From a virus: a stretch of DNA of 28,865 nt. The first letter of the stretch is position 1; each line of letters starts with the position of its first letter. The stretch spans positions 1-28,865 of the IMG/VR virus record IMGVR_UViG_3300039136_000093. One strand, given 5' to 3'. A model generated the notes under the pieces. It was not told the DNA's origin. It saw nothing but the letters and a program-made list of their open reading frames with translations, and made no database searches. Position numbers and translations under genes: made by a program. Positions 18,202 through 24,519 of this stretch are shown one piece after another.

Positions 18202-19508
18202 TATGTTCCCGTGTCTGGTTTTCCGTAAGTATCTCTGACAAGTTTCATTGATGTTATTGACTGATCAACTTCAAAATGATGACACAATTCCTTAATCATA
18301 TATAGACCGCTTAAGTCAGGGTCAACTCCCTTATTAGTTTTATCAGAGGATGTTTTTACAAAATCACAACGAATCATATCACCAGCTCTCAGACTACTAT
18401 TCATCGGAACCTGAATTTCTAATATCTGCATAAACAGCAAATTATATCTCAAAATAGATTCTCGTTGTCTATTAAAAATATCAGCATTTTGTTGAATTGA
18501 TATTCCATTATCAATGGTTCCAACATCATCAACCATTGTCATGATTCTTGATGGCAGGTCAGGAATGTCTCTACCACCAAGCAATTTAGGTATTCTAAAT
18601 TCATCACCCATAGTAACACTTGGTTTATTATCATTAATATTAGTCACCCCATCTTGAGGCAGTGTAAATGCTCCAAATAATGGATTGAATGATGCCGAAA
18701 AACTTGAATACATACCTCTTCTAAGCTTTTCAATTAGATTATGATTTGTTGTCACATTGTAATTTAATATAATGTCATCAGTATAGGTTAAAGGACTCTG
18801 AGGAATTTCATGATTTTTGTAAACAAATTTTGGTCCGTTTTTTCCTGCATTAATTAATTTACTAATAGATTTGAATTTGAATCCATCATGAGTTTGAAAA
18901 AAGAAAAATCCACTATTATTTTGATTATCAACTGCCTTTGATGCCAACCAAATCAAAAGCGAGAATGGTTTCTTCATATTCCCAATGAAACCATAGGTGT
19001 TTGATGTATCATCAATCTCACTGAATTTTGATCCCAATCTCTCTAGTATAGTAATAGCAGAATTTGATATGCCATTACCCATCGCAAATCTATTAGAAAT
19101 CCTGGTGATTTCATTTCCAATTGATTCTCTTGAGGTCAAATCAAGAACTAAAAGTTCTCTCTGACCTTCTTTGACAACCGAAGAAATTTTAGAAACATAA
19201 AGATATCTCTCTGGAGAATTGAATAACAATCCAGGACTATTTGCTTGTCCTTCAGGTTTAATGTGAATAGAGACTCTCTCACCACCTCTGATTGGTAGAC
19301 CCGAATAAAGAGATTCAAGTTTACCATTCTGTCCAACGACAGTATTACCACCATCAATAACAACTAATCTAGCAGTTATTGTTGGTGAAAGAAGATCCTC
19401 ATAATAATCAAATGAAACTACACCAAGTCTAAGATCAACTGTTTTTTCTGAAAAGGAGGATTCAATTGTAATCTCCTCATATGATGCCGTATTTCTTGCG
19501 CTTCCCAT
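18201..19508 (-). CDS. gp27-like baseplate hub protein
   Basis: This 435-residue protein is close in length to T4 gp27 (391). It lies immediately before gp5, its binding partner in T4. It has a beta-rich N-terminus (SYEEITIESSFSEKTVDLRL), then VVSFDYYEDLLSPTITARLV. A ISNSAITILERLGSKFSEID helix follows, and FSLLIWLASKA. The C-terminal segments SLRAGDMIRCDFVKTS and LSGLYMIKELCHHFEVDQ resemble the second barrel of tail-hub proteins. Together these fit the trimeric torus at the end of the tail tube. Start and stop overlap both neighbours by one base (TAATG), indicating tight coupling. Identification rests on order and fold-like motifs more than on direct identity. Confidence 0.65.
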   Translation of the reverse strand: MGSARNTASYEEITIESSFSEKTVDLRLGVVSFDYYEDLLSPTITARLVVIDGGNTVVGQNGKLESLYSGLPIRGGERVSIHIKPEGQANSPGLLFNSPERYLYVSKISSVVKEGQRELLVLDLTSRESIGNEITRISNRFAMGNGISNSAITILERLGSKFSEIDDTSNTYGFIGNMKKPFSLLIWLASKAVDNQNNSGFFFFQTHDGFKFKSISKLINAGKNGPKFVYKNHEIPQSPLTYTDDIILNYNVTTNHNLIEKLRRGMYSSFSASFNPLFGAFTLPQDGVTNINDNKPSVTMGDEFRIPKLLGGRDIPDLPSRIMTMVDDVGTIDNGISIQQNADIFNRQRESILRYNLLFMQILEIQVPMNSSLRAGDMIRCDFVKTSSDKTNKGVDPDLSGLYMIKELCHHFEVDQSITSMKLVRDTYGKPDTGT

Positions 19509-21007
19509 TAGGTTGTCATTGTTTTGTAGTTATACAGATCATCTAGCAGTTGACCTCTAGATCTCCCACTAGTATTTAACATAGGAGGAGCAGAAGCAAC
19601 AGTTTGCTGTTGAATCATAGGAGCAGGAGGAGGACTATTAGGTTCAATAATGACTGTAGTATTTGATTGTGACGACGGAGGTGCCATCGCAATCGTGTTT
19701 GTACGCAAAGAATTTGGATTACTACTAATATTTCCTTGCTTTAGTACTTTATCAAGGGTTTCTTCAAGTCTCTCTGGAGTAGCATTTGCCTTATTATTAG
19801 GATCCCCAGCGTAAAAACTCTGCCCTCTCTGCACTTGCTGACTTTGACCTTGAGTTGGTGCTAAAACAGGACTTCCCGCAAACTCTTGTGCTAGACGACG
19901 AGCTGCTTCATTACGATTATTCCTAATCATGTCAAGAGTAATTCCTCTCTTCACAGTAATCAAATAAAGTGCCATTTGATCCTGCACTGCAGCAGAAAAT
20001 TTAGTTGTTAAAGGAATTTTAAGTTCCTTAGCAACTTGATCTGGATATAATATTTGATAAGCGCCAACAGCAGCACTTCTAGCATTTTCAGGAACGCCTT
20101 TCGCTGCCTGATGAGCGAGGTAATCTTTTTGATATTGAACTAGTTCAGCGATCGTCATTTCGGTGATATCTTCACCTTTTCTGTTAAAATCACTCAGAGA
20201 ACCGCCATCAAAAGTAGAACCGTAATTGCCCTCTACTGACCTGACAAAATTCAAAAGGGGTCCACTCTGTGCGGATGGTATTGATTGTCCTTGCTGTTGT
20301 CCCCCTCCCTGTGTTTGTTGGCGCGTTTGATTATTTCTTGGATCTAAGAAACTTAAAAAGTCTGGGAAATCAAATCCGATCGACTTCATCAATTGAGAGG
20401 CATCTTGACGAAGTAAATCAACACCCTGTTCAGTAGACCTTGACATCTCCTGGAATCCAGCAATCAATCTATTCATGCCAGCGTCAAACTCTTTTCTGAA
20501 TAATTCAATATTGAATGTAGATATTCCTGTGAAGACTGCACCGATTGAATCTCTAAATCCTGCCAACATTTCTGTTGTTCCACCAAAGAATCCATTAAGA
20601 GTGCTAAAATATTTCTGAAGTCTCTTGTATAAATTATCTGCCGTCGCTGCAATTCTAGGAAGATTTAATACTGCCCAACCAACCAATACAGTTCCGACAA
20701 AATCCATAATTCTACCAAGAAATCCCTTGGTGCTTCTTGAAGCGATTTTACCGACTCTCTTAAAAGATCCGGTCATTTGACTCGCTTCAATTAGATCTTC
20801 TTTTTCTCTTCTCCTTACAGACTCTCTTCTTAAACGAAACGTTCTGTTACTGGTGGATATTGCATCCTGCCTTCTTTCGTTAGATTCTCTTAGAGATTTT
20901 GAAATATTATTAGCAGATTTTTGTGTTTGGAAGACGGTTTTAGAAAGTCTATTCATAGACTCTCGGATACCACTTATACTTCTAGCAGAGTTATATGCGT
21001 ATGCCAT
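19508..21007 (-). CDS. Tail hub/tape-measure-type protein with lysozyme-like domain
   Basis: Residues 1-90 are charged and helical (RRESVRRREKEDLIEASQ). A hydrophobic segment (FLGRIMDFVGTVLVGWAVLN) lies near 96-115. A Gln/Gly-rich linker follows at about 226-250. Residues about 250-382 look like a lysozyme or lytic transglycosylase domain: LLNFVRSVEGNYG with candidate catalytic E259, AAVGAYQILYP (compare GRYQ in lambda-R-type enzymes), then FSAAVQDQMALYLI and RRLAQEFAGSP. This could cut peptidoglycan during entry, replacing the lysozyme absent from gp5. The C-terminus has SNTTVIIEPNSPPP. The start overlaps the 434-residue gene as TGATG. The domain call is by pattern; enzyme activity is untested. 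Confidence 0.65.
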   Translation of the reverse strand: MAYAYNSARSISGIRESMNRLSKTVFQTQKSANNISKSLRESNERRQDAISTSNRTFRLRRESVRRREKEDLIEASQMTGSFKRVGKIASRSTKGFLGRIMDFVGTVLVGWAVLNLPRIAATADNLYKRLQKYFSTLNGFFGGTTEMLAGFRDSIGAVFTGISTFNIELFRKEFDAGMNRLIAGFQEMSRSTEQGVDLLRQDASQLMKSIGFDFPDFLSFLDPRNNQTRQQTQGGGQQQGQSIPSAQSGPLLNFVRSVEGNYGSTFDGGSLSDFNRKGEDITEMTIAELVQYQKDYLAHQAAKGVPENARSAAVGAYQILYPDQVAKELKIPLTTKFSAAVQDQMALYLITVKRGITLDMIRNNRNEAARRLAQEFAGSPVLAPTQGQSQQVQRGQSFYAGDPNNKANATPERLEETLDKVLKQGNISSNPNSLRTNTIAMAPPSSQSNTTVIIEPNSPPPAPMIQQQTVASAPPMLNTSGRSRGQLLDDLYNYKTMTT

Positions 21008-22311
21008 CAGAGACCTACCCCACCAATATTATACTGAATAGCAGAATATAAAACATAAGGATTGGATGGATTTGAACTACCCACAGGAGGAGCATAGTTA
21101 CCAACACCACTGGCAGATTCTGTTTCTATTGGGGCATTTTCCCCTCCTTGTCCTGGAATAATAACTGTGTTATTATTAACCCTATTAGAATCTTGCTGCA
21201 AATCAGATTCTTTTTTAGTTCTGCCTTGGAACAGATCAAGAATGTCTGATGGACGTTGCTGCAATTCTGGGATTTGATTTAATCCACTTCTTTGAAATAC
21301 TTCAGGTCCAAGAAATGTACCCACTAATGATAAACCAAAACCATAGGGATTAGTACCACCAATAATAATTGGCAATGCAGACAGAACAGCACTAGTTCCA
21401 ATTTCACCAATTGGTCTATTCTGTATGACTCCAAATAATGCGTTTAATGCTGCTGTGCTTAGACCTGCTCCATATCTTCTACCAGCAGGTCTTACGACTC
21501 CTGGTGGCGGTGTGTTTCTATTTCCTGGTTGAGATCTTGGTGGTTGTTGAGTAGGTGGTGCAGGCGCTCCTCCCGGTGGGACGGCAGGAACACCTCTTAG
21601 TCCTGCTAATGTCGCTACGGCAACCGCTCTTGCTAATTGGAAAGCAAATTGAATTGGTCTTAGTATGAGAAGTCTCAGTGCTGGTGCAGCAATAGTCGAA
21701 CCAAGTCTTCCTAGAATATTCAGAAGAATTCCAAATCCACCATTCAATCCACCATATAGTAAGGCAGCAATCGCCAAGTCACCTTTAATCTTATCAAAGA
21801 CTTGACCTAATCCCTCTTTTCCATCAGAGGATAATGAAGATATAACACTTATAATTCTACTGACTAATATTCCACCTAATAAAGTATTGAAGAATTTTCC
21901 AAGATTAAACAAAGACCCTTGTACTTTTGCTCCAACAACTCTCAGTGGTTTTATCAAAGCACTCTGTATCCTTCTCTCAATCAGAGATTCTTTTCCCTCT
22001 CTTATTTGTTGTTCTGCTAAAGTTCTTTCCTGTCTATTTTTTTGCTGATCTCTCGCCTGTTCTATTAAGGAAGATCTTTGGATTTGTTGAGAAATACCTT
22101 GAAGTGATGCACTAAGCACTCCAATCTGAGAAGTCACACCTGCTAGAGTATTATTCATACTCTGCAGAGCAAGTTGATTTCTCTGTAAAGCAATCGCCGT
22201 CTGTGGATCTTGTTGAGGAGCTTGCTGTACTGGACGACCAATTACAGCAGCAGAAGGAATAACGTTCCTTCTAACTCTCATACCCAATATTGGCGATGAA
22301 AATTCAGCCAT
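21007..22311 (-). CDS. Hydrophobic tape-measure/hub-type tail protein
   Basis: This 434-residue protein has an N-terminal Gln-rich coiled-coil-like part (LQSMNNTLAGVTSQIGVLSA, QQIQRSSLIEQARDQQKNRQ). Several hydrophobic stretches follow at about 140-245 (FNTLLGGILVSRIISVISSL; LAIAALLYGGLNGGFGILLN). Next is a Pro-rich linker (GGAPAPPTQQPPRSQPG) and a second hydrophobic part near 300-335. Near the C-terminus is NNNTVIIPGQGG, echoing NTTVII in the next gene. Coiled coil plus membrane segments plus a position after the chaperone-like pair suggests a tape measure or hub, the place of T4 gp29. The T4 protein is longer (590), so the role may be split with the 499-residue neighbour; this is inference. 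Confidence 0.55.
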   Translation of the reverse strand: MAEFSSPILGMRVRRNVIPSAAVIGRPVQQAPQQDPQTAIALQRNQLALQSMNNTLAGVTSQIGVLSASLQGISQQIQRSSLIEQARDQQKNRQERTLAEQQIREGKESLIERRIQSALIKPLRVVGAKVQGSLFNLGKFFNTLLGGILVSRIISVISSLSSDGKEGLGQVFDKIKGDLAIAALLYGGLNGGFGILLNILGRLGSTIAAPALRLLILRPIQFAFQLARAVAVATLAGLRGVPAVPPGGAPAPPTQQPPRSQPGNRNTPPPGVVRPAGRRYGAGLSTAALNALFGVIQNRPIGEIGTSAVLSALPIIIGGTNPYGFGLSLVGTFLGPEVFQRSGLNQIPELQQRPSDILDLFQGRTKKESDLQQDSNRVNNNTVIIPGQGGENAPIETESASGVGNYAPPVGSSNPSNPYVLYSAIQYNIGGVGL

Positions 22312-22495
22312 TTAGTCCAGATTGCTGCTGTGCTTTGAGATTTTCTTCCTCAATATATTGTTGTAGGAAACTGAGATATACTTCTCTTTCCCACGGTATC
22401 ATGTTTTCAATCTCTGTTAATGAGTATTTATGATGCTGAATCAAGGCAAAATTTGTTTTGAAGTATGACTCAAGGTCTTCATGAGCCATACTCAC
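22304..22495 (-). CDS. Small tail-assembly chaperone extension (63 residues, -1 frame of gp26-like gene)
   Basis: The frame opens at a GTG (22495) overlapping the gp26-like stop as GTGA; an ATG follows at 22489. The protein contains HEDLESYFKTNFALIQHHKY, then SLTEIENMIPWEREVYLSFL and QQYIEEENLKAQQQ, a short helical protein with a central PWERE(V)Y motif. No well-placed Shine-Dalgarno site precedes either start; the nearest GGAGG is 19 bases before the GTG. A -1 slippery heptamer lies just upstream, so this may be made mainly as a C-terminal extension of the gp26-like protein (about 301 residues in all). Size and place fit the T part of a G/GT tail chaperone, or a remnant of T4 gp51 function. 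Confidence 0.65.
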   Translation of the reverse strand: MSMAHEDLESYFKTNFALIQHHKYSLTEIENMIPWEREVYLSFLQQYIEEENLKAQQQSGLNG

Positions 22496-23208
22496 GCGAA
22501 AAAAGCGTTAAGTCCCTCCAAAACAATTTCACTCTCTACACCAGTGTTAGGATTTTTAACCGTAACTGTGTGAGATAGTTTAGGCATAGTTTCAAAAAAG
22601 TTTTCAATCTCTTTGAATTGTTTTGAACTTAACTGCTCTAGAAATTCGTTTAGTTCTTTCTTCGTACAGTCCGAAGTAGACCAAGATTCTTCCTCATTAA
22701 ACACCTGCTCAATGCAAGAAGAGATAACTTCAAAAGTGCTTTCTACAGTAAGTTCAGTAGCACCAAAATTGTTTTTAATGAATTGTTCCATAGAAGGATA
22801 CTTCATTCTCATAGTCAGAGCATCATCAAGGACAATATCTCTTGAGTGCCCCTTTCCCTTTTGAACTTTTATTTCATCCAGGTTAATAACTGTTGGAACT
22901 TGTGTTTCACCATCATCAGGACAAGTTACAAGAACCTCAACATCTTCACCAACAGACTTACCTCTAATGTTTAGGAAAAGATATTCAATGTCAAACGTAG
23001 ACAATTCATCTACCTTGACATTTCTTGTGATAATGCAGTTACTGATAACATCTTTGACTGCTTCAGCAATTTGCTTCTCATCTTCACTTTCCATAGCGAT
23101 GATAAGAACTTTTTCTTCACGAACTAAAAAAGGTCTGTATTTTATTTTCTTTCCAGTTGATGGTAATGCCAACTCATATGTTGGAGTAGAAATCTTTGGT
23201 AAAGGCAT
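22492..23208 (-). CDS. 26: gp26-like baseplate hub/tail assembly protein
   Basis: This 238-residue protein is comparable to T4 gp26 (208). It has the family features KKIKYRPFLVREEKVLIIAM near the N-terminus, NCIITRNVKVDELSTFDIEY and LFLNIRGKSVGE in the middle, a CPDDGE segment, and an acidic C-terminal half (TMPKLSHTVTVKNP). In T4, gp26 takes part in hub assembly. The gene is followed in the -1 frame by a 63-residue ORF and then by tape-measure-type genes, the order of tail assembly chaperones in other tailed phages. The last codons are GCT TTT TTC GCG TGA and contain a slippery heptamer. A GATAAATA motif lies 20 bases upstream of the ATG. Confidence 0.8.
   Translation of the reverse strand: MPLPKISTPTYELALPSTGKKIKYRPFLVREEKVLIIAMESEDEKQIAEAVKDVISNCIITRNVKVDELSTFDIEYLFLNIRGKSVGEDVEVLVTCPDDGETQVPTVINLDEIKVQKGKGHSRDIVLDDALTMRMKYPSMEQFIKNNFGATELTVESTFEVISSCIEQVFNEEESWSTSDCTKKELNEFLEQLSSKQFKEIENFFETMPKLSHTVTVKNPNTGVESEIVLEGLNAFFA
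22498..22519 (-). promoter_or_regulatory. Candidate programmed -1 ribosomal frameshift signal
   Basis: On the minus strand, T TTT TTC (22504..22498) is in the X XXY YYZ register of the gp26-like frame, two codons before its TGA. GGAGG (22519..22515) lies 10 bases upstream, the arrangement of the stimulatory Shine-Dalgarno element in E. coli dnaX. Slippage enters the frame of the 63-residue ORF. Confidence 0.55.
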
Positions 23209-23228: not shown

Positions 23229-23236
23229 TATTTATC
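23229..23236 (-). promoter_or_regulatory. T4-late-type promoter motif GATAAATA
   Basis: Minus-strand GATAAATA lies 20 bases before the ATG of the gp26-like gene at 23208, within the end of the gp54-like coding sequence. It would drive the long hub and fibre operon. Confidence 0.55.
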
Positions 23237-24044
23237 TGGGGGGATACATCCTTTCAAGAACGTCAATTGAATAATCAGTGACACTATCATAACCAGCTTC
23301 TTCAGCAGATAACCGAAGATCTTCATCATTGTATCTTCCTGCATTCTCAAGTATTTCATCACTAATACCTGCTCCATCTATTCTATTAATTTTACCGTTA
23401 CCATAAGTAATATTATTAGATCTTCCTCTTGCAACAGAGAGACTATCAAATTTACCCATTAGATATCTATCAAAACTAAATGTGGCAGTTGCCTTCAGAA
23501 CTTCCGACTGCTCATATTTTACTGGTGTAGAACTTAAATCAATTGGGAACAATCCAATAAATCTATATTCCAGTTCTTCCTTGTAGTCTCTATCAAATTT
23601 GATAATCGTGCTCTGATCACACTTATAACTATGGGGATACTCCATTCTATGGAAGTAATTGTTATTACTCACTCTGTTCTTACTGGTGGTTGCTCCATTA
23701 GCGATAAATTCCATCCAGTGCTCTAGGAACTTCAAAGTTTTGTATTCATTGTCAACGTAGAATTCTAATTGAATCTGTGTGAATAATCTTGTGTGTGCCA
23801 TTTTTTCAGACACACCCATATGATTTCCAATAATGTCTGATGTTGCAAGTCTACTACCTGGCAAAACTGCATTATAGCAAAGGAGTCCAGATGTTTCTGA
23901 TATAAACCTATTATTAACACCTCTAATCTGCAGATGCTGTCTTAAATTAAGTGGTAATCCAGCAAAGAACACTTGATAGTGAGAACTCTGTGCGAGATTG
24001 GTGAAGGTTGGTTTAAAGTCTGATATTCTGCGAGGTTTTACCAC
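23232..24044 (-). CDS. gp54-like baseplate tail tube initiator (tube-fold protein)
   Basis: This 270-residue protein opens with a GTG codon (MVKPRRISDFKPTFTNLAQS). It shows the tail-tube fold pattern: SHYQVFFAGLPL, CYNAVLPGSRLATSDI, FTQIQLEFYVDNEYKTLKFL with EHWMEFI, then YCHRMEYPHSYK-like aromatic strands, IIKFDRDYKEELEYRFIGLF with PIDLSSTP, and ATATFSFDRYLMGKF. T4 gp19, gp48 and gp54 share this fold. Because gp48 is identified on the other strand and this gene lies beside the hub operon, gp54-like is the best fit; a tail tube relative is the alternative. It lies 37 bases from the divergent gp4 gene. The GTG start has only a weak Shine-Dalgarno. Confidence 0.6.
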   Translation of the reverse strand: MVKPRRISDFKPTFTNLAQSSHYQVFFAGLPLNLRQHLQIRGVNNRFISETSGLLCYNAVLPGSRLATSDIIGNHMGVSEKMAHTRLFTQIQLEFYVDNEYKTLKFLEHWMEFIANGATTSKNRVSNNNYFHRMEYPHSYKCDQSTIIKFDRDYKEELEYRFIGLFPIDLSSTPVKYEQSEVLKATATFSFDRYLMGKFDSLSVARGRSNNITYGNGKINRIDGAGISDEILENAGRYNDEDLRLSAEEAGYDSVTDYSIDVLERMYPPR

Positions 24045-24081: not shown

Positions 24082-24519
24082 ATGGCATATAAGGGTAAAT
24101 ATTCACCGTCGTATCCTAGAAAGTATAAGGGAGACCCCACAAACATTGTATATCGTTCCCTCTGGGAGCGCAAGTTCATGGTTTACTGTGATTTGAATGA
24201 GAATATTCTTGAGTGGGGTAGTGAAGAAATAGTCTTACCCTACAGATCACCTGTTGATGGCAGAGTGCATCGTTACTTCCCAGACTTTTACATCAAGGTA
24301 AAAGAATCTACGGGCAGAATCAAGAAGATGATTATTGAAATCAAACCTAAGAGGCAGTGCTCCCCACCATCAAAACCTAAGAAGCAAACAAAAGGATATC
24401 TTCGTGAGGCATATGAATATGCTAAGAATCAAGCAAAGTGGGAAGCAGCATCAGAGTGGTGTAAAGACAGGGGATATATCTTTAAGGTCTTCACTGAAAA
24501 AGAACTAGGTATCAAGTAA
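24082..24519 (+). CDS. 4: gp4 head completion protein (TnsA/PD-(D/E)xK-like fold)
   Basis: This 145-residue protein is close in length to T4 gp4 (about 150). It has NIVYRSLWERKFMVYCDLNE, then ILEWGSEEIVLPYRSPVDGR, HRYFPDFYIK and KKMIIEIKPKRQ. These contain a nuclease-like constellation: E29, P67-D68 and E86-x-K88. T4 gp4 is a head completion protein needed to finish DNA-filled heads before tail joining. The C-terminal half is basic (KPKKQTKGYLREAYEYAKNQ). It is first in a plus-strand operon; the next gene overlaps its stop (TAATG). No clear Shine-Dalgarno precedes the ATG. Confidence 0.85.
   Translation: MAYKGKYSPSYPRKYKGDPTNIVYRSLWERKFMVYCDLNENILEWGSEEIVLPYRSPVDGRVHRYFPDFYIKVKESTGRIKKMIIEIKPKRQCSPPSKPKKQTKGYLREAYEYAKNQAKWEAASEWCKDRGYIFKVFTEKELGIK

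Follow-up and report, generated by a model that had tools for sequence, protein, structure and literature searches.

A probable programmed −1 ribosomal frameshift in the tail assembly chaperone gene of a T4-like cyanophage

Two overlapping frames at the end of a gp26-like gene

Does a small open reading frame (ORF) that overlaps the 3′ end of a T4-type gp26-like gene represent a gene of its own, or the C-terminal part of a second product of that gene? The locus in question lies on IMG/VR virus record IMGVR_UViG_3300039136_000093, whose 28,865 bases were analyzed as a whole (the window). The minus strand of this record encodes tail genes of the T4 type, and the source is an uncultured T4-like cyanophage. 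The gp26-like protein matched PF12322 (T4_baseplate, gp26/gp51) over positions 2 to 219 of 219 (E = 1.2e-76; 257.7 bits against a cut-off of 24.5) and the baseplate hub family phrog_150 over positions 5 to 232 of 282 (E = 5.7e-83). Its gene ends in GCT TTT TTC GCG TGA, and the 63-residue ORF (22304-22495, minus strand) is in the −1 frame relative to it. This ORF matched phrog_634 (baseplate hub assembly catalyst; E = 4.9e-28) as well as positions 238 to 278 of phrog_150. Since the two ORFs match successive segments of phrog_150, they appear as consecutive parts of one protein model. The heptamer T_TTT_TTC stands in a register that suits simultaneous −1 slippage, and the product of such a slip would consist of residues 1 to 237, an arginine and the 63 residues of the extension, 301 residues in all. 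The initial annotation had proposed such a fusion of about this length, and what it had read from the letters (the heptamer, its register, the spacings of GGAGG and the −1-frame ORF) held in every point on re-reading.

From the comparisons described below, we consider it highly probable that this T4-like cyanophage obtains two isoforms from a single tail assembly chaperone gene through programmed −1 ribosomal frameshifting. At TGA, most ribosomes would stop and release the 238-residue short form (gp26-like, TAC-N), and some would slip back by one base on T_TTT_TTC to produce the 301-residue long form with a gp51-like C-terminal domain (TAC-NC). An upstream Shine-Dalgarno (SD)-like GGAGG and a hairpin beginning 4-5 nt past the heptamer would aid the slippage. 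By analogy with lambda gpG/gpGT, both forms would cover the tape-measure protein while the tail is assembled and bring in the tail-tube subunits. The features of the locus are compiled in Table 1.

Table 1. Positions of the putative frameshift elements and neighboring genes in the window
Feature	Position	Strand	Basis or remark
Tail-tube-like protein, directly upstream of the gp26-like gene	23232..24044	-	PF23849 Phage_TTP_2, E = 6e-17; phrog_45 tail tube, E = 8e-41
gp26-like gene, short isoform (TAC-N), 238 aa; stop TGA 22492-22494	22492..23208	-	PF12322, phrog_150
GGAGG, SD-like upstream element	22515..22519	-	Sequence; 10 bases upstream of heptamer
Slippery heptamer T_TTT_TTC, zero-frame codons GCT TTT TTC	22498..22504	-	Sequence and relatives
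−1-frame extension (TAC-C, "gp51" of cyanophages), R + 63 residues, including stop	22304..22498	-	phrog_634, phrog_150
GTG of the 63-residue ORF	22493..22495	-	Sequence
Downstream hairpin, 12-bp stem GAGTATGGCTCA/TGAGTCATACTT, 9-nt loop	22461..22493	-	MFE −15.7 kcal/mol
In-frame ATG in the 5′ arm of the hairpin; possible independent start of the small ORF	22487..22489	-	Without properly spaced SD
Two ORFs (434 and 499 aa) directly downstream, candidate tape-measure region	19508..22311	-	Position

The order of genes on the minus strand is tail tube-like gene, gp26-like gene and large ORFs. The latter had been called tape-measure-type in the initial annotation, which is likely, although the support from profiles is weak: tape-measure profiles matched only weakly to the equivalent downstream genes of relatives (approximately 500 to 1170 aa). 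The two downstream ORFs, which overlap by one base at 21007, are a candidate for a tape measure split between two genes. The matching region holds a single 1167-aa ORF in S-PM2 and two ORFs (529 and 516 aa) in P-SSM2. Elsewhere in the window, the head-closure (gp4-like) protein at 24082-24519 showed a Pfam match to a TnsA-like endonuclease N-terminal domain (E = 1.1e-24).

Conservation of the slippery site and its flanking elements

Motifs of the type TTTTTTY are not rare, with 17 occurrences in the window compared to 22 expected from shuffles. As they are common in the AT-rich DNA of this stretch, the question of chance had to be decided by comparison. The heptamer was unchanged in all 80 close IMG/VR loci (approximately 70-85% protein identity), where it is followed by one codon, the stop, two bases and an ATG. 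Among 52 non-redundant close sequences, just 4 of 238 codon columns had a degenerate codon whose third base never changed, namely, residue 226 and the three heptamer codons. The residue before the heptamer phenylalanines varies (S, A, N or D), while its third base is T throughout. The alignment of the junction was extended to 93 relatives (non-redundant at <90% identity), a check that the initial annotation had suggested. Heptamer and phase were kept in 91 of them (77 TTTTTTC, 13 TTTTTTT and 1 TTTTTTG). The distant set included Kyanoviridae, Straboviridae (Aeromonas PX29 and Ah1; Vibrio schizo-T4), Pootjesviridae (OLIVR5, RHph_I9), Chakrabartyvirus pf16, Menderavirus Marzo, Methylophilales phage Melnitz-3 and many marine contigs. 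Codon usage would predict T_TTT_TTY in about 38 non-redundant genes, compared to the 90 that carry it (log10 P of −38, which does not represent a true probability, the sequences being related and not independent). Rhizobium phage RHph_I9 shows an F-to-L change and still keeps a slippery site, TTTTTTG. A chance heptamer would fit the raw frequency, which is at background, yet it is ruled out by phase and conservation. IMG/VR scans for relatives of OLIVR5, PX29 and Marzo returned few, and those for relatives of Vibrio K444 and D527 returned none.

The two of the 93 genes that are without the heptamer belong to Vibrio K444 and K357. Loss of the heptamer next to an intact small ORF, which the initial annotation had named as a sign against frameshifting, was confined to two groups, the Ackermannviridae and the Vibrio K444 phages, and a related NTT TTY stands there in the same place (loci L190 [Salmonella phage GOT, 2307], L191, L193, L084, L182 and L192). 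Ackermannviridae (Salmonella GOT, Dickeya phiD3 and Klebsiella Bestiario) have ATT TTC and a conserved −1 extension; no start codon precedes the conserved beginning of this extension in Kuttervirus GOT or Taipeivirus Bestiario, where it has been left unannotated. CTT TTY is found in the Vibrio K444 group, together with an ATG overlapping the stop (TAATG) and a retained −1 ORF. Both groups may use a relaxed slip site. For Vibrio K357 and K446 (L182 4697-4801, L192 2335-2439), the annotated small ORF begins too late and trims the conserved first part.

The region upstream of the heptamer was found to be conserved as well. A duplex with the anti-SD of −4 kcal/mol or lower lies about 12 nt upstream of the heptamer in 88% of 90 relatives, compared to 4% elsewhere in the gene, and glutamate codons at this site show a GAG:GAA ratio of 51:8, compared to 413:1038 elsewhere in the same genes. 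What is conserved is an SD-like element; the GGAGG highlighted in the initial annotation is not strict, as GAGGG, GGAAGG and AAGGG were also seen. The downstream hairpin, which that annotation did not mention, is reflected in a mean folding z of −2.5 for the 60 nt downstream of the heptamer in 90 relatives (mononucleotide shuffles). Standard pairs made up 91.5% of the pair cells of the stem in the 52 close sequences, compared to 29-41% when the arms were slid. One stem pair displayed a compensatory double change from U-A to G-C in these sequences, a switch that requires at least 3 changes (5 by parsimony) on the gp26 tree. In another clade, an unrelated stem (GCCTC/GAGGC) takes this place and shows a switch from C-G to G-C. 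Downstream folding gave no clear hairpin in some distant lineages.

A run of 6-7 T is conserved, as a change of frame by transcriptional rather than ribosomal slippage would predict. The run is short, however, and mostly ended by C (by G in RHph_I9), and the codon phase, the SD-like element and the spacing of the hairpin suit slippage of the ribosome; transcriptional slippage is therefore most improbable. What the comparison shows is a real and strongly conserved signal that very probably functions in −1 frameshifting; slippage itself, its efficiency and the chaperone role are inferred.

Start codons and routes to the extension

The 63-residue ORF might instead be a gene in its own right, with ribosomes reinitiating after termination at the ATG that follows the gp26 stop by two bases; the heptamer would then be incidental. 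Public cyanophage records do annotate gp26 followed by a distinct gp51, the spacing of 2 nt between stop and start would suit reinitiation, and the ATG is present in 80 of 80 close relatives. We therefore followed the start codons of the extension across the relatives, scanning the first seven −1-frame codons after the slip and the upstream sequence in frame to the last stop. ATG, GTG or TTG was absent before the conserved N-terminus of the −1 ORF in 28 of the 91 non-redundant heptamer genes, Melnitz-3 being an example, while the isolates P-SSM2 and S-PM2 have the same cassette as this cyanophage. A change of frame is therefore the only way for the start-less lineages to make this conserved part of the extension (LSHxxLExYY) whole. 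One marine clade (e.g., L118, L148 and L156) has its zero-frame stop 31 nt past the start of the heptamer, so that both frames overlap through the conserved region. Because of the start-less lineages, an independent gene is rejected as the sole route. It is also opposed by the third bases of the heptamer, which are invariant beyond coding need, by the position of the ATG within a stable stem, and by T4 gp51, in which the same tail is fused to a gp26 domain. The distance of the GGAGG from the ATG, 25 bases, is a further point against it; the GTG is 19 bases away from the GGAGG. Taken together, a separate gene as the explanation of this locus appears very unlikely.

As the ATG is always present in the clade of this cyanophage, the start-less lineages are not decisive for this gene alone, and a free small protein of 61 aa could be made from the conserved ATG in the close relatives. 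Both routes might thus operate in the marine cyanophage clade, with frameshifting giving the long form and reinitiation at the ATG a free TAC-C fragment. This possibility overlaps with frameshifting as the best explanation and adds a third product to it. The conservation of the ATG speaks for it, since the frameshift model needs no start codon there. However, the pairing of the hairpin stem also accounts for the ATG bases (columns 17-19 pair with 39-41), and the equivalent of the ATG is missing in many other lineages; we regard the use of both routes as rather unlikely. We would likewise give only a small chance to a broader scheme, in which marine T4-like phages possess a cassette with three outputs (short form, −1 fusion and free TAC-C from the hairpin ATG), the hairpin balances slippage against reinitiation, and a relaxed NTT TTY replaces the canonical heptamer as slip site of the Ackermannviridae and of the Vibrio K444 group.

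Relation to T4 and to known chaperone systems

T4 distributes the two products over two genes, a short gp26 and a full-length gp51, in contrast to the one gene of this cyanophage. T4 gp26 (208 aa) has neither the heptamer nor the extension, and gene 25 is next to it. T4 as a phage sharing this frameshift was ruled out, since T4-type gp26 genes (L087 and L090) are without the heptamer and are followed by gene 25. Residues 1-201 of T4 gp51 (249 aa) matched PF12322 (E = 7.7e-55), and the protein covered positions 13-280 of 282 of phrog_150 in addition to positions 2-103 of phrog_634. T4 gp51 thus comprises a gp26-like domain and the extension in one frame, which means that the fusion occurs naturally as a single ORF. 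In the cyanophage, the two parts are in different frames, and only the frameshift product would match T4 gp51. On a midpoint-rooted gp26/gp51 tree of 38 sequences, all T4-type gp26 and gp51 proteins fell on one side of a branch with 98/95 support and the frameshift-type proteins on the other; the gp51 proteins grouped at 99/98. This topology fits a duplication that would have replaced frameshifting within part of the Straboviridae.

A 233,234-bp Aeromonas phage contig (L093) has the TTTTTTC heptamer, and its −1 extension lacks a start codon; we take this contig to be Aeh1. Phage Ah1 (L186) has no annotated gp51; the extension is encoded in its −1 frame, and no ATG precedes the conserved part. 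The gp51 proteins of cyanophages and marine vibriophages have been described as lacking the N-terminal ~200 residues, and Aeh1 was scored as having no gp51 (PMC3037559). The ~200 absent residues would be gp26, supplied by frameshifting, which would account for this old oddity.

Tail assembly chaperone genes of T4-like phages, with gp26 as TAC-N and gp51 as TAC-NC, are reportedly the subject of a study by Vladimirov, Gautam & Davidson (Virology 2022, 566:9-15). The passage of the PRFect paper that cites this study describes T4-like phages that, instead of frameshifting, encode the short form and the fused long form in separate genes (PMC10885494), and the passage citing it in the phage Adele paper refers to poly-T −1 frameshift signals in T4-like TAC-N genes (PMC12846349). 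The initial annotation knew of no such frameshift for the T4 gp26 group. As the two papers credit chaperone genes of T4-like phages, and the Adele paper also their poly-T sites, to the 2022 work, that claim of novelty was wrong in kind. On their account, this kind of T4-like chaperone frameshift was already reported in 2022, and the member in this cyanophage is unannotated; as far as can be judged from them, the protein families are the same, with the present gene being of the frameshifting type. Recognizing it would correct the annotation in hundreds of cyanophage genomes, which break up the fusion and, for some lineages, carry no annotation of the −1 part. Frameshifting and gene duplication would also offer a natural comparison of routes to the same two chaperones, and the cassette represents a compact slippery element that is directly testable with reporters.

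The gene order and the isoform design suggest by analogy a chaperone of the gpG/gpGT type. This G/GT-type reading, together with the −1 frameshift and the dnaX-like upstream element, had been put forward in the initial annotation and stood up in the comparative tests. An AlphaFold2 model of the 238-aa short form (pLDDT of 87) matched other phage baseplate-hub chaperones in a viral structure library with E values down to 1.7e-19. Its Foldseek match in the PDB to the HK97 tail assembly chaperone (gp13, 2OB9) was weak (probability of 0.54/0.44, E of 2.2, target TM of 0.43-0.50, with E above 2), and a sequence search of the PDB found no relative. Publicly, gp26, gp51 and gp28 of Acinetobacter phage Apostate are annotated as tape measure protein assembly chaperones.

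Lambda gpG/gpGT and P2 E/E+E′ likewise consist of a short and a C-terminally extended isoform, produced by a −1 frameshift near the 3′ end. Their genes lie between the tail tube and the tape-measure region, and the placement would be the same here, with the tape measure as a candidate; the tail-tube-like gene occupies the place of lambda gpV before gpG. Sequence homology of the lambda and P2 chaperones to this protein was not detectable in the searches made. The slippery site of lambda is GGGAAAG and that of P2 is TTTTTTG, which is also the heptamer of RHph_I9. The E. coli dnaX cassette likewise combines an SD-like sequence about 10 nt upstream, a slippery heptamer and a downstream hairpin; dnaX is unrelated to this chaperone gene, and its frameshift leads to a shorter product. 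In the chaperone genes of Vandenendeviridae and Andersonviridae, which are other phage families with the motif GTTTTT, a −1 slip close to the TAC-N end is likewise conserved, and the −1 frame stays open downstream (PMC12846349).
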